From Semisulcospira habei (lineage: Eukaryota; Mollusca; Gastropoda; Semisulcospiridae): 64,000 bases of DNA. Below are positions 6,439 to 58,423 of the stretch, one piece after another; the first letter of the stretch is position 1, and the number at the start of each line of letters is the position of its first letter. The DNA lies in the NCBI GenBank assembly GCA_036245525.1, contig BTPG01000006.1:76453227-76517226 (forward strand). The letters run 5' to 3'. Under the pieces are notes generated by a model. The model had not been told where the DNA came from. It searched no databases and saw nothing but the letters and a program-made list of their open reading frames with translations. The position numbers were made by a program, and so were the translations under genes.

Positions 6439-9400
6439 CTGATGAAAAAAAGGGCAGAGATTCATGTTACTATTTAACCCATTACATCCTGACGCTGATA
6501 TTCTTCTGATTAGAGAGATAGTTGTCCTATGAAGGCTACATTTCAGTCCCTACGATGGACTGACAATGTTGGTGGTTCAAGGGAGGTGCCAGGACAGTTT
6601 GGCACCTCCCCCCTCCCCCCTTCCCCTGGCGCCAAGCTGTTCTGGCACCACCCTTCAACTATCATGGTGATTGTATCTCATATGAGAGCGTATCAGGATG
6701 TAAAGGATTAATTAAAGCGACCTGCTCTAGGCTAAAAAGAGTAAACAGGTTGCAATGTCTCCTTTATAAACGGTCTTTGGGTGTCTTACAATAATGCTGC
6801 ACGAGCGGACTAACTTGATTTTATGAAGTGTAAATGTCATAAAATGTAGCCCCTGAACTGCCAGGGCAAGGTGAACGCTATTCAGCTACAAGAAACATGA
6901 ACCCTCATGAGCCCCTGCAGTCGCGGGGGCTCATGAGGCTTGATCTCTCTTGTTAGTACTATGTTCTGTTACGCCTCTGTTTGGTCCCATTTACGTCTGT
7001 GTCTTCACGTGAAAGTCGGTCAGCGGGCAGTGGTTTCAGACACAAAATCTATGATCACAGGCAGTGAAGGGGTTAAAACTTTCAGAAGCGGGTCCCTTAA
7101 ATGTACACATACATATATAGAAAATTCAAATATCAAACAATAAGCTAGACACACTGTTAACTCAAGACGCGACAAAGTTAGTGCCCGTGATCACTGGCAG
7201 TGAAGGGGTTAATACTTTCAGGAGCTTAGCCCCTTTAACATACACACACACACACACATCACACATATATATATATATATATATATATATATATATATAT
7301 ATTATATATATATATATATATATATATATATATATATATATATATATATATATATATATATATATATATATATATAGACAAAGACAAATATCAAACAATA
7401 AGCTGCATAGACACGCTGCTAAATCAATAGACGCGACAAAGTTAGTGCCCGTACCTGCGTTTGTTCCTTGAGTGTGATCTGTCGCAGGTCCAGTGCCGGC
7501 GGTGGCCGTTGCTCCTGCCTTCCACGTCCAGTCGAAAACGTCGCTCGCGTCCTGCGTGAAGCCACACAAGGCGCGGTCATCAAAGTCACAGGTGATGGCC
7601 CCTGTGGGAGAACGACATAAAAACAAGCCATCAACATGGGTAACAAGTTACATGTTGCAACAGAATGTAGTGATTATTATGTACAATGAATAACCCATTT
7701 AGCCTCGTCGCCCAACAGCAGGAGATGGGTCGACCATGATAATTCAAGAGTAGTGCTAGATTAGCTTGGCGCCTTCAGGCGCCAAGCTAATCTAGCACTA
7801 CTCTTGAATTATCATCCTCAATCCATCTCCTGCAAATGGTACATAGTCGTCCGGTGAAACCTCCAAAATTTGCCTAAATGTGGCCATGGGATAAAAAGGA
7901 GGACAAGTCACTTTTGGGGGCAGTGGCGAGTGAAGTGGAAGACATTCAAGACGTGCCATGTCCAGATACACCGCATAATGCTGCACATCTGACTGCAGCA
8001 CATCTCAAATGTCTTAACCACTTCACTGCTGAGAACAACTGAAACACCACCCAAATGCAAGAGGTGTAGATCCCCGATAAAAGAGAAGAAACAAAACGAA
8101 AATTGCCCTTACCACCAGCAGTGCTGGGAGTACCAGTCGGACAGGGGAAGTTGGAATAGGTGATGTCATCAATGCCGATGTCACCCAGGTAACTTGTTCC
8201 ACGAGTTCCCTCAATTACAAGCTGCAACAAGAAAAGCATACGACTTGACTCATTTCATCTTTGTTCCCAGTGGACCAGGCAGCAAAAATATAAGTGTATG
8301 CTAAACTATGAGTATGAGCCTTGTGGAAGTTTCTTTTCTGATGTGAACAAGAAAAAGTTACTTCTTTAACCCTTCACTGCCAGTGGCAGGAACACAAAAC
8401 ACCAAAAGGGCCGGCTGCAAGAGACACAGATCCTCATCAGACTCCGCAGGGAGGATTTATGCCTCTTGCTGACACCACTCTGTATCCATGTTCCTTGGAC
8501 AGCCGAGGCTCTTTGGAGTTAAATTAAGATTTCAGAAATATGATCTACCTTGCGCTAGGTGCTCGAGGGTCTGTGTTTTACTACATGGTCAGACCACTTA
8601 GCATTTCTCATGCAGATGTCCTATCAATAGAAACCCAACAGAAATAAGCCCAGACAAGGAGAAACCTACCTGGTACTGAGAATAGACCTGAGAGTACCCC
8701 AGGATGGGGACTGAGGCCTTCAGCCACTGGTTGCCCTGTGTACCGGAGCGTGTCCACACCAAGCTCTGTTCGGCGCCATTAGTGGGCTTGGTGTAGATAT
8801 TGAGCGCGTTGATGTGGGGGCCATACATGTGGTACCAGAATCCGAAGCATGCTCCGAGGGCGCTGGGGTTCATGACGGGGGAAATCAGATGGGCAGTGTC
8901 GTTGGGCAGGCGTGGCGAAGACGTCTCGATGTAGGCGTAATAACCTTGGACTGTGGAAAGGGCGCAGACACTACTATATATTATCAGTCATGCTAAAATA
9001 ATTGCGTCACTCCGTCCTGAAAGCAAAAGAGTTCACATCTGTGTGCTGGTGCGTGATATTAGACCTTGCTGCTCAGAGCCATAAGGTCCCAAATCACAGT
9101 CCAGTAGACATTGAACAGTGCTTTCCAAGGGATTGACACGGCACTGCTGTTGTTATTTTTGGGTTCAACACTCCCAGGATCACCCAGCACGTGTTCCTGC
9201 TTTAGATCAACTACAAGCACTTTCCCGCCGACAAAAGGTGAACGCCATAACAACTGCAAGAGACATAGATTCACATGAGCCCCCACAGTTGCGGGGACTC
9301 ATGAGGATCTATGCCTGATGCCGACACCACTTAGTATCCTTGTTCCTTGGACGGCTGGGACACTTAGGCGCTGAGTTATCAAAGTTCTCAGAAACATACT

Positions 9401-12400
9401 CGGCGTCCACCTGAGGATTTCAAACAGCTCCAGAGACTGTTTCAGAGACTGGAAAGCTGCTAGGCTGGAAGCTTCCTGGACCATTTGCAAGGGTACTTCC
9501 GTTTGGGGAATACGTTTTTACAAGTACACTTCTGTTCAAGTGAGATGCTGATTGTGATGAAACTCTATGCTCACTCATAGGGTTTACACAGAGGGTTTTG
9601 TATGGTACGGTTTTGTCAGCGGTTTGTCTTGTGACAGATATTCCGTGAGGCACGAGTTCACGTGCAAGCGGTTTACACGGGGAGTTTTAGGCGAGAGCTC
9701 AGTCTATCAGAGGTCTAAATAGTTAGTACGGGGCTATACTGTCAGTGAGGACAGATGTGTGTGAGATACCCTAGCCGGTATTCCAGGACTCTGAAACCTA
9801 GAACTCAGGTATGTTTTATATGTATTATTAACAGCTACTGAGCTAAAGATAGTATGCGTTAGCAAGAGTTATTTCGGTTGTGTAGCGTTGACTGGTTTGG
9901 TTCAGTTATGTGGGTTTGGAATTCGTTGAGGTAACCGGTGTTTGTCCTATGTGGTTATTTACCGAGATGGATAACTAAGGAATGTGAGGTGTGTATGCCT
10001 ATGTCGTTATGAAGGTAGTACGTGGTTAAGTAGTCTTTTCCAGTGTGTTGGATAATGTATGGCGAGAGTGTTAGGTTATAGTCTGTTTCAAGGTAGTGAC
10101 AGAGTTATGGGGTGTTATGAAAGTAGTTCGGGTTATGAACCACATGTGTGTGTGAATGAATGTGTGAGAGTTATTTGTATCAGCCAGGTTACGTACTGTA
10201 TCTCATACCATCTAATATGTGTGTGTTTGGCAAGTGTTATGCTATTAGAACTCTATTATTCAGAGTGCTTGTTGGGAGCGGAGCGATGGACGCCGAGACG
10301 TCAAGTCACCAGAGGCTACCGCTGAGGGACCTGTTGTGAGGTCATCTCTTCACTCAGGGAGTGAGCGACCGGTGCCGAGACACCCGCGTCAGCAAGGACT
10401 GCGCTACAGAGCGAGTTAAGAGGACGTCCACTGTACGAGAAACGAGACGACCCGGAACCGTGCGATGAAGGACTTGCATGCCTAGACGTGAAAGGTCAGA
10501 ATGTTACCAAGCGAGAACACCAGCAAACAGGTTGGATTGTGAGAGACAATTACCTAGCCTGGCGTTTACATTGTGTATGTGTATGTGGTGTTGATGTGCT
10601 TGTAGTAGGAAGGTGTGGTGTACATAAGCTTTGGAGTGATCTTTTATTGTTTACTGTTATAAAGACCCACAGGAGAAAGAGAGCTAGTGTGTTGAATTTT
10701 ACCGCGTGAATGCGCCCGACTGAGTCAGTGGCGGTGTATGCGTCTGTTGTGCGAGTCTGTACGTGCCACTAGGGCAAGTCTGCGTGCGTTACACTGATCA
10801 TCTCCATTTGAATTAAAGTGTACTTGTGACTTGTGGCGTACTCCCCGAGTGGGTCTATCTGGGGAGTGCTCCTACAAATGATACAGGTTACCCTGAAAAT
10901 AATCAAGAGTACTCCCAAATGAGGAATACGTTTTCACAAGTACCCGGTACACTTCTATTTAAATTAATGAGATGCTAAGCATCTCATTTGAATAGAAGTG
11001 TACTTGTGGCATACTCTCTGAGTGGAATACTCCCGCAAATAATAAATGTTACCTTCGCCGAAGATAGTCCCCACTTAACAATGCCATAACAATTAATCCC
11101 TGCTGTTGCCTCCGTGTTCTAGCTGAAGTAATCAATGACCACAAACTTTGCTGAGGCAAAGAGATTGGCAGTGAAAGAGATGCTTCTCCACGTACTGTTT
11201 CCCAAAGTATGGTCGAACAAAGGCCCAGTGTTCGTGCTTGAAGTTGCCCCTGATTTGCGCGACCAGTCAAACGTGTCTGTCGTGTCCTGAGTCCACATGC
11301 AGAAGCCTTGCTCAAAGTTGCAGTCATACGGAGACGGAACTAACACATAAGAAGGACAAACAGAAACATGAATACCAGTGGTGTACAACACTACCAAAAT
11401 AATGACGTATGGCTACCAAGCTGCTAAAAAACCAAAACATTAACATTTATTTTGCAAACACAAATTTAACCCTTTGGATGTCGGCAGTGGTTTTAGGTGC
11501 GATGATTCCTGTAGGACGTCAGTGTTGTTATTCCTGTAGGAATCATCGTGACTAAAACCGCTACTGACGTCCAAAGGGTTAAAATAAAATGAAAAACAAA
11601 AACCAAAATACACTACTCACTTTGAGTGACTGCGGGTGCAGACGTGGTGATGGGTGCTTCTGTGGAACTTATAGCGTCAGTTGGGTACCCTGCACAAAAG
11701 TCATCTGATGGTCAGCAAAGGTCCCTAGGCCAATGCCCAGCCAAAGTTGGACATGTGCTGCAAAGGCCCATGTCGGTCAAAGGGCATTTGCTCACTGTTC
11801 AGACATGTTGACCAGAAGACAGTTAGGGCTTGTCTTTCTTTATGAAGCGAGTGTGATGCAGAAAATAAACTGAAAATCAACCTCATCATCCTCTTGCTGC
11901 GCAAAAGCTTTTGAGGTATACATCGGCTGCCGTTGACCCGTGCACAGCTGAGCGTGAGCCAACGCCAGCCAACATTGGCCCAATGCCTTGTGCACACTCT
12001 GCCATCAAGTTTACCTGGTCTTGTCAATACTACCACCATCATTATCATTACTGTTCACTCATTCACTACATGCACTCGCTCAGTCCTATGACCAGTTTGG
12101 TTGTTTGTGGTCTTGAGGACTGCTGATGTAGCCAATGTTTTCTATCATAGATCACATCCCCCATCATCACCTTAAACTCCCAGAACTAAATGACTTCCAT
12201 TCTATAGAATGGAAGTCATTTAGTTCTGTGAGTTTAGCCTCTTCACTGCCACTGATCGTATATCGTACGTCTGAAATCTGTGTCAATTCAACGTGAAAGA
12301 GCTCCAGCCGTCCCACGAACAATGGATGCAAAAAAAGCGGTTTCAGCAAGAGGCATAGATCCTCATGAGCCCCCGCAATTGCGGGGGCTCATGAGGATCT

Positions 12401-58230: not shown

Positions 58231-58251
58231 GTGACCTGGAACTAAGATCCT

Positions 58252-58423
58252 TTAATCCCAAAGCCACATTTTCCAAATTTTGGAAGTGTCGCCTAACAAC
58301 TTCGTACCAGCTGCTGGATATGGATCGACCATAATTCAAGGGTAGTGCCAGATTAGCTTGGCGCCTTCAATTATCATTGTCGAGTTATCTCCTGCTGTAG
58401 TGTTCAGGGGCTAAGCAGGTTAA
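58252..58423. mobile_element. TTAA-bounded P2 element, one stem arm deleted
   Basis: TTAATCCCAAAGCCACATTT to GGGGCTAAGCAGGTTAA, 172 bases. Only TTCAAGGGTAGTGCCAGATT and AGCTTGGCGCC remain of the core. Confidence 0.8.

Follow-up and report, generated by a model that had tools for sequence, protein, structure and literature searches.

Hairpin-bearing TTAA-flanked elements in and around a Semisulcospira habei MAM-domain gene are probable piggyBac-type MITEs

We analyzed a 64,000-nucleotide stretch of the Semisulcospira habei genome (assembly GCA_036245525.1, contig BTPG01000006.1, positions 76,453,227 to 76,517,226 of the forward strand; the window), in which short TTAA-bounded palindromic elements lie between and beside the exon blocks (33 modelled) of a minus-strand gene for a tandem MAM-domain protein (57.6 to 6.2 kb). 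These elements are probably non-autonomous piggyBac-type miniature inverted-repeat transposable elements (MITEs), moved by resident piggyBac-like transposases and with a hairpin that would be renewed in source copies. Their internal hairpins number three: one in family P1, one in family P5, and one common to the subfamilies P2, P3 and PE. The elements are widespread across the genome and not particular to the MAM-domain gene.

TTAA-bounded elements and their hairpins

An initial annotation of this DNA had described at least fifteen palindromes running from TTAACCC to GGGTTAA, give or take a base, and these elements are real. Each of the 15 elements named there is bounded by TTAA on both sides; the left tip reads TTAACCC in 14 and TTAACCG in one (24137), and the right tip reads GGGTTAA in 12, the exceptions being GGATTAA (6474), GTGTTAA (23176) and TGGTTAA (30570). 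The ends are beyond chance: a blind scan of the window for inverted TTAA pairs (spaced 60–450 bp, with 10 or more of 14 subterminal bases matching in inverted orientation) returned 16 pairs, compared with 7 in total over 20 first-order Markov shuffles (mean 0.35). One pair (24562–24627), with TTAAACT ends, is of another kind than the other 15, and the pairs at 48440 and 48579 have one right end in common. Inverted ends of ~12–19 bp, as expected of piggyBac-type MITEs, are thus present in the 16 window pairs, and also at the right end of 24 of 30 fetched copies of PE (at least 11 of 14), a subfamily described below.

Profile searches of the window, with hits retained at an E-value of 1e-4, gave 53 intervals spanning 7.9 kb (28 P1, 12 P2, 7 P3 and 6 P5), of which 20 had both tips, 14 had one and 19 had neither. 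Elements with TTAA at both tips measure 83–238 bp. The copies lie 7–43% (Kimura two-parameter distance) from the consensus of their own family, a spread that indicates mixed ages.

The consensus sequences of P1, P2, P3 and P5 are 214, 214, 211 and 92 bp long. P1, P2 and P3 follow a common layout, namely an ~18-bp end, a left spacer, a long hairpin placed off-centre to the right, and the other end; their large stems begin 31–51 bp inside the right tip. P5 is a palindrome over its full length, tip to tip. The families had been thought to contain unrelated internal stems, which does not hold for P2 and P3, as these have one core stem in common, and the copy at 47778 couples P2-type ends to a P3-type core. 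The left spacers are related as well (equalled in 0 of 500 shuffles for P2–PE and for P3–PE, and in 1 of 500 for P2–P3). P2, P3 and PE are a single family, with a common stem and spacers that are related.

The crowding of the elements in a single gene turned out to be a window effect, since another 29 copies occur in 144 kb around transposases elsewhere. Exact matches across the genome on both strands, which tally ends or arms and not elements, numbered 9,433 for the PE end, 2,265 for the P1 end, 1,964 for the P5 arm and 187,035 for the core-arm pattern. The exact P2/P3 core was not found in viral contigs.

Resident transposases, matching ends and empty sites

The S. habei genome (1.98 Gb) encodes piggyBac transposase domains (PF13843): all 116 scored hits exceeded the cut-off, a lower bound given that 1,058 candidates existed. 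We fetched 28 distinct transposase loci and assigned 26 of them by similarity to types A–F; L028 and L030 were left unassigned. The autonomous copies are 2.8–3.4 kb long, apart from one of 5.0 kb, and their ends include TTAACCCATATAAGCCTG, TTAACCCATTATTGCCCA, TTAACCCTTTCGCCGCCG and TTAACTCATTCTACCCCA. By type, the ends read TTAACCCATATAAGCCTG (A), TTAACCCA[CT]TA[AT]TGCCCA (B), TTAACCCTTTCG[CT]CGCCG (C), TTAACTCTTACCAGTTCG (D), TTAACTC[TA]TTCTACCCCA (E), and TTAACTCTTTGCCACCGT with TTAACCTTTTGACGACGG (F). Most type A copies are 97–99% like the reference copy, a sign of recent movement. Two E copies were found, L026 with both TTAA tips and L009 with altered tips. Over 18 bases, the ends of different autonomous families agree at 9–14 positions, and the best matches of the MITE families to autonomous ends reach 15 (P1), 16 (P2), 14 (P3) and 14 (P5). 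Types A, B, C and E carry, by a count made with no chance control, a palindrome with 6–8-bp arms at about bp 19–38 of one end, TTAA included.

Seven A copies (L003, L006, L007, L012, L014, L017 and L023) have an extra segment of 348–350 bp at reference position 2540, absent from the other copies. It has no TTAA borders; an intron and an old indel are both possible origins.

The closest link between a MITE and an autonomous element came from a P2/P3-core element at L017, whose right end equals autonomous E over 18 bases and whose left end is disturbed by two extra bases. A 24-mer comprising this end and the L017 bases that follow it accounts for the 9,433 genome matches mentioned above, compared with 0 for a reversed control. 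The 24 of 30 copies fetched with this terminal 24-mer that make up the PE set include 17 whose right end agrees at 14 of 14 positions; they differ by 1.4–5.1% from a 214-bp consensus. Compared with the entire E element, PE matches at the ends only (20 of 20 bases left and 18 of 18 right, against one E end), and the left end having been set by the search pattern, the right end alone is an independent match, which lessens its weight. We take PE, from these similarities, to be a young sister family with the ends of autonomous E.

These data bear on the proposal that piggyBac-like transposases mobilised the hairpins. Transposases in the genome, autonomous ends of the TTAACCC type and the 18-base match between PE and E speak for it. 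Resident transposases would recognise the ~18-bp ends (TTAAC[CT]C...) and shift the MITEs by cut and paste into TTAA, the E transposase presumably moving PE and its relatives moving P1, P2, P3 and P5; movement would thus be in trans. In the 17 distinct window frames covered by a Pfam search, no piggyBac domain was found.

We also examined empty sites by joining the flanks of 24 PE copies at one TTAA, which gave junction-spanning matches for five copies. For L038, a clean paralogous empty site in L030 matches at 86.9% over 229 bp, uninterrupted and with no extra bases, and reads TTAG for TTAA. L048 has a weaker empty site in three paralogs (75% over 60 bp, TTTA for TTAA; a gap of 8 bases interrupts the match six bases upstream of the site). 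In L037 the PE copy sits inside an older P3-like MITE; the match of L039 is to itself, and that of L051 is ambiguous. The suggested TTAA target duplication is therefore borne out for PE, by a single tetranucleotide at one clean and one weaker paralogous site, and not for the window copies. As far as these alignments go, they support a 4-base TTAA target duplication.

Several observations weigh against a piggyBac origin with transposition into TTAA. No autonomous partner with the exact ends of P1, P2, P3 or P5 was found among the 28 loci fetched, 26 of them assigned to types A–F. The empty-site paralogs carry TTAG and TTTA instead of TTAA, the L048 match extends over 60 bp at 75% with its gap near the site, and the L037 junction has three extra bases. 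For the window copies no empty site was found, the sole junction-spanning match being a self match at 37933. Finally, the motif CC[C/T]T beside TTAA has been quoted for the ends of piggyBac-type MITEs, while coral AmiPB4 reads CCCATT (PMC2872659). A strict CC[C/T]T start agrees with P5 (CCCT) and disagrees with the usual ends of P1 (CCCC), P2 and P3 (CCCA) and PE (CTCA); autonomous elements with PF13843 in this genome deviate as well (CCCA, CTCT).

Paired arm changes and alternative explanations

The arms of the hairpin have changed in pairs. The consensus stems of P2 and PE, each perfect over 46 bp, show 5 paired differences and 0 unpaired. Among P2/P3 copies, 15 pairs changed on both sides, compared with 7.3 in shuffles (0 of 500). 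For P1 the count was 16 cells against 6.7 shuffled (0 of 500), and for P5, 13 cells against 7.3 (6 of 500). Sliding the partner arm reduced every measure. The relatedness of copies can inflate all of these counts. One alignment (A3) excludes the misaligned copy 26382 and single-arm copies and takes its structure from one of its sequences; another (A4) contains 16 of 20 P1 cores.

Not all comparisons favor paired change. P2 and P3 differ by 3 paired and 5 unpaired changes, the latter all in the outer stem, and 3 of 5 P3 copies have a one-sided inner difference at columns 56/63; the chance of 6e-6 calculated for P2 versus P3 takes all bases as equally likely and counts three differences among 34 positions, leaving that one-sided difference aside. 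The numbers of pairs changed on both sides are weak for P1 (9 against 5.7 shuffled, 23 of 500) and P5 (8 against 5.5, 51 of 500), the number of pair types was not above shuffles for P2/P3 and P1 (283 and 361 of 500), and P1 retains 11 of its 16 cells when the partner arm is slid by +2.

Variation in the stem is about half that in the spacer. Among 12 window copies detected through their ends, pairwise differences in stem and spacer were 0.232 and 0.399 for P1, 0.137 and 0.250 for P2, and 0.145 and 0.384 for P3, contrasts reached in 4, 7 and 0 of 5000 permutations, respectively. In PE, deviation from the consensus was 2.2% in the stem versus 5.3% in the spacer. The low variation suggests a role of the stem in amplification, which it may aid. 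How the common stem came to be joined to differing ends can be explained in two ways. One is plain co-divergence: P2, P3 and PE would descend from one ancestral MITE, their ends drifting with diverging transposases and nothing being swapped or captured. This is compatible with piggyBac-mediated mobility and source-copy renewal as proposed above, and we consider its chances about even. Besides the related left spacers and the mixed copy at 47778, the P2 copy at 43373 points the same way, its ends being like those of E at 16 and 15 of 18 positions. Set against it are the restriction of the PE–E match to the ends and the greater difference of the ends than of the inner stem, both of them compatible with it. 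Co-divergence competes with a second reading, in which the hairpin core is a module: the palindrome would be kept in source copies, be needed for amplification, and have reached ~100,000 copies via successive piggyBac families as its ends changed. The related spacers lifted co-divergence from somewhat below an even chance and made the module, doubtful to begin with, slightly less credible still, so that we now think it unlikely.

The pattern of mismatches addresses whether the pairing was selected in RNA. Hairpins retained as small-RNA precursors or structured intron transcripts would be expected to show paired changes, and the stems are indeed long and stable (four were folded, as DNA). However, stem mismatches comprise 63 G-U and 81 A-C; there is no wobble excess, and nothing here points to RNA pairing. 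In the young PE copies the arms decay separately, with 37 single-arm changes compared with 1 paired complementary change (~0.1 expected) and 1 paired non-complementary change, and no Rfam family matched the elements at gathering thresholds. We therefore find selection on RNA improbable.

The predominance of single-arm changes in PE leads us to place most palindrome renewal in source copies. There, template switching or conversion between the arms would restore the palindrome in the DNA itself, replication switching between arms being the simplest route. We also considered arm homogenisation copy by copy and rejected it. Identity to the own arm exceeds that to other copies by little (0.85 versus 0.81 for P2/P3, 0.82 versus 0.79 for P1, and 0.85 versus 0.78 for P5; reshuffled arm pairing equalled own-arm identity in fractions of 0.0084, 0 and 0.0184 of 5000, respectively), and the PE copies show 37 single-arm changes for one paired complementary change.

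Low stem variation and paired changes could also be produced by the way copies were detected and by fitting alignments to a palindrome. Many copies were found via the stem, the A3 structure comes from one member, and the slid and shuffled controls leave relatedness in place. The contrast persists, however, among the 12 end-detected window copies and in the PE copies fetched by a terminal 24-mer, and the stems of P2 and PE are each perfect and yet differ in pairs; we give such an artefact little credence. TTAA duplication is not exclusive to piggyBac, Kolobok being another superfamily with a TTAA target, but the match of the PE ends to a PF13843-bearing element of the same genome makes a mover from such a superfamily very improbable.

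Related systems, the host gene and the window map

To our knowledge, it is unsettled what makes so many MITEs long hairpins and what keeps these hairpins perfect. The genome studied here combines a high-copy hairpin family, its several types of end and young members, and an autonomous element whose ends are the same, a combination that lets the role of the hairpin in driving amplification be tested directly.

The initial annotation knew of no described equivalent with such complete palindromes, but piggyBac-type MITEs with differing ends and a common interior have been described. The closest known case is that of the CMITEs of the coral Acropora, elements of ~100 bp and an estimated ~1,600 copies (PMC2872659). 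They share with the S. habei elements TTAA duplications, short piggyBac-type ends and resident piggyBac-like transposons, ends that are less conserved from family to family than the interior, one family that matches an autonomous element at the ends and in little else, and an allele without the element. The elements here differ in being 92 or ~215 bp long and in having, as their common interior, a long hairpin whose arms changed in pairs; in scale, the coral estimate stands against our 187,035 core-arm matches (arms, not elements). The text on the coral elements contains neither "palindrom" nor "hairpin", and the likeness is one of shared features.

Like the piggyBac superfamily (PF13843; mechanism in PMC7351741), the elements have a TTAA target, short inverted ends and autonomous partners with the transposase domain; unlike autonomous piggyBac elements, the MITEs here are without known coding capacity. 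The same source reports that a dimer of the piggyBac cysteine-rich domain binds a palindrome at bp 17–33 of one end, close to the position of the palindrome in types A, B, C and E; the large MITE stems lie further inward. Human MER75 and MER85 are likewise piggyBac-like and TTAA-flanked and have subterminal inverted repeats, but in the available portion of PMC12324416 their inner repeats of 5–15 nt reflect a search setting and no shared hairpin core with paired changes is described. Paired stem changes have also been explained by DNA replication switching between arms, in work on the upkeep of hairpins by template switching (PMC8794818); that work concerns RNA genes, and its text lacks "transpos". 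Paired arm changes in MITEs were not named in the titles or abstract openings of the literature searched, a partial coverage under which they could be reported unnamed. Within that literature, we found no description of the hairpin nature of the common interior, the paired arm changes or the contrast between stem and spacer, which we regard as new.

The coordinates of the elements are listed in Table 1. Within 48462–48669 a 117-bp sequence precedes a P5 palindrome, and within 47164–47364 a P5 palindrome likewise follows 107 bp of this sequence (47164–47270, 88% alike); this repetition may indicate a longer P5-bearing unit. Composite P1 elements, with a hairpin followed by a second, partial or whole, hairpin and similar junction sequences, occupy 23636–23879 and 25037–25340. 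Long palindromes or inverted repeats unmatched by the P1–P5 profiles lie at 27490–27593, 19189–19318, 28148–28302 and 5449–5826.

Table 1 Elements and host gene in the 64,000-nucleotide window
Feature	Position	Strand	Remarks
P3 element	6474..6711	+	TTAA at both tips, right end GGATTAA
P2 element	7691..7899	-	57-bp arms 93% complementary; terminal bases decayed
P5 palindrome	11466..11582	+	TTAA at both tips
P1 element	12234..12454	+	Full length, terminal bases decayed; adjoins P2 copy at 12457
P2 element	12457..12629	+	TTAA at both tips; stem partly deleted
P1 element	13799..14017	+	TTAA at both tips
P3 element	20702..20911	-	Tips TTAACCC and GGGTTAC
P1 element	23176..23391	+	Right end GTGTTAA
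P3 element	24137..24317	-	TTAACCG at one end
P2 element	26156..26350	+	TTAA at both tips
P1 element	29673..29854	-	Single intact end
P3 element	30570..30786	+	Right end TGGTTAA
P3 element	31900..32092	-	Partial decay of ends
P2 element	37343..37478	-	TTAA at both tips; stem mostly deleted
P5 palindrome	37933..38015	+	TTAA at both tips; adjoins P5 fragments at 37885–37930
P1 element	42585..42800	-	TTAA at both tips
P2-core element	43373..43532	-	Ends resemble autonomous E at 16/18 and 15/18
P2 element	45012..45216	-	TTAA at both tips
P1 element, short	46814..46953	+	TTAA at both tips
P5 palindrome	47273..47364	+	Palindromic from tip to tip; arms of 45 bp, 93% complementary
Element combining a P3-type core stem with P2-type ends (one tip TTAACGC)	47778..47990	-	
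P5 palindrome (48579–48669) following a third P5-type end and a spacer of 117 bp	48440..48669	+	
P2 element	56032..56245	-	TTAA at both tips; arms of 57 bp, 98% complementary
P2 element	58250..58423	+	One decayed end; stem partly deleted
Host gene, tandem MAM-domain protein, 33 modelled exon blocks	6230..57600	-	Introns hold most elements

Among 120 relatives listed for the MAM-domain protein, a protein of Littorina saxatilis had the top identity, 62% across 42% of the query. Several elements terminate 18–42 bp upstream of exon acceptors, and 7 of 33 acceptors and 6 of 33 donors have an element end within 60 bp, in an interval list without the 48440 end and the 37885–37930 fragments. The chance of at least as many under random placement was 0.0045 for acceptors and 0.022 for donors, or 0.022 and 0.066 with chosen retroelement stretches masked. 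The crowding near exons is mild, on both sides and not acceptor-specific. Targeting of splice acceptors, with TTAA doubling as a branch point, was rejected because donors are crowded too.

An open reverse transcriptase frame of 811 amino acids spans 48884–51316; its best relatives are 91% identical, and 86% for one filed under a Plesiomonas shigelloides metagenome-assembled genome, a match that probably reflects host contamination. Long open frames beside the MAM-domain gene occur at 1733–5422 and 59830–63271, with an RVT_1 match at 2504–3310; they might conceivably belong to DIRS-type elements. A 5S rRNA-like match (62953–63072, 72.4 bits) and a tRNA-like match (57845–57908, 35.6 bits), both on the minus strand, are possibly parts of short interspersed nuclear elements.

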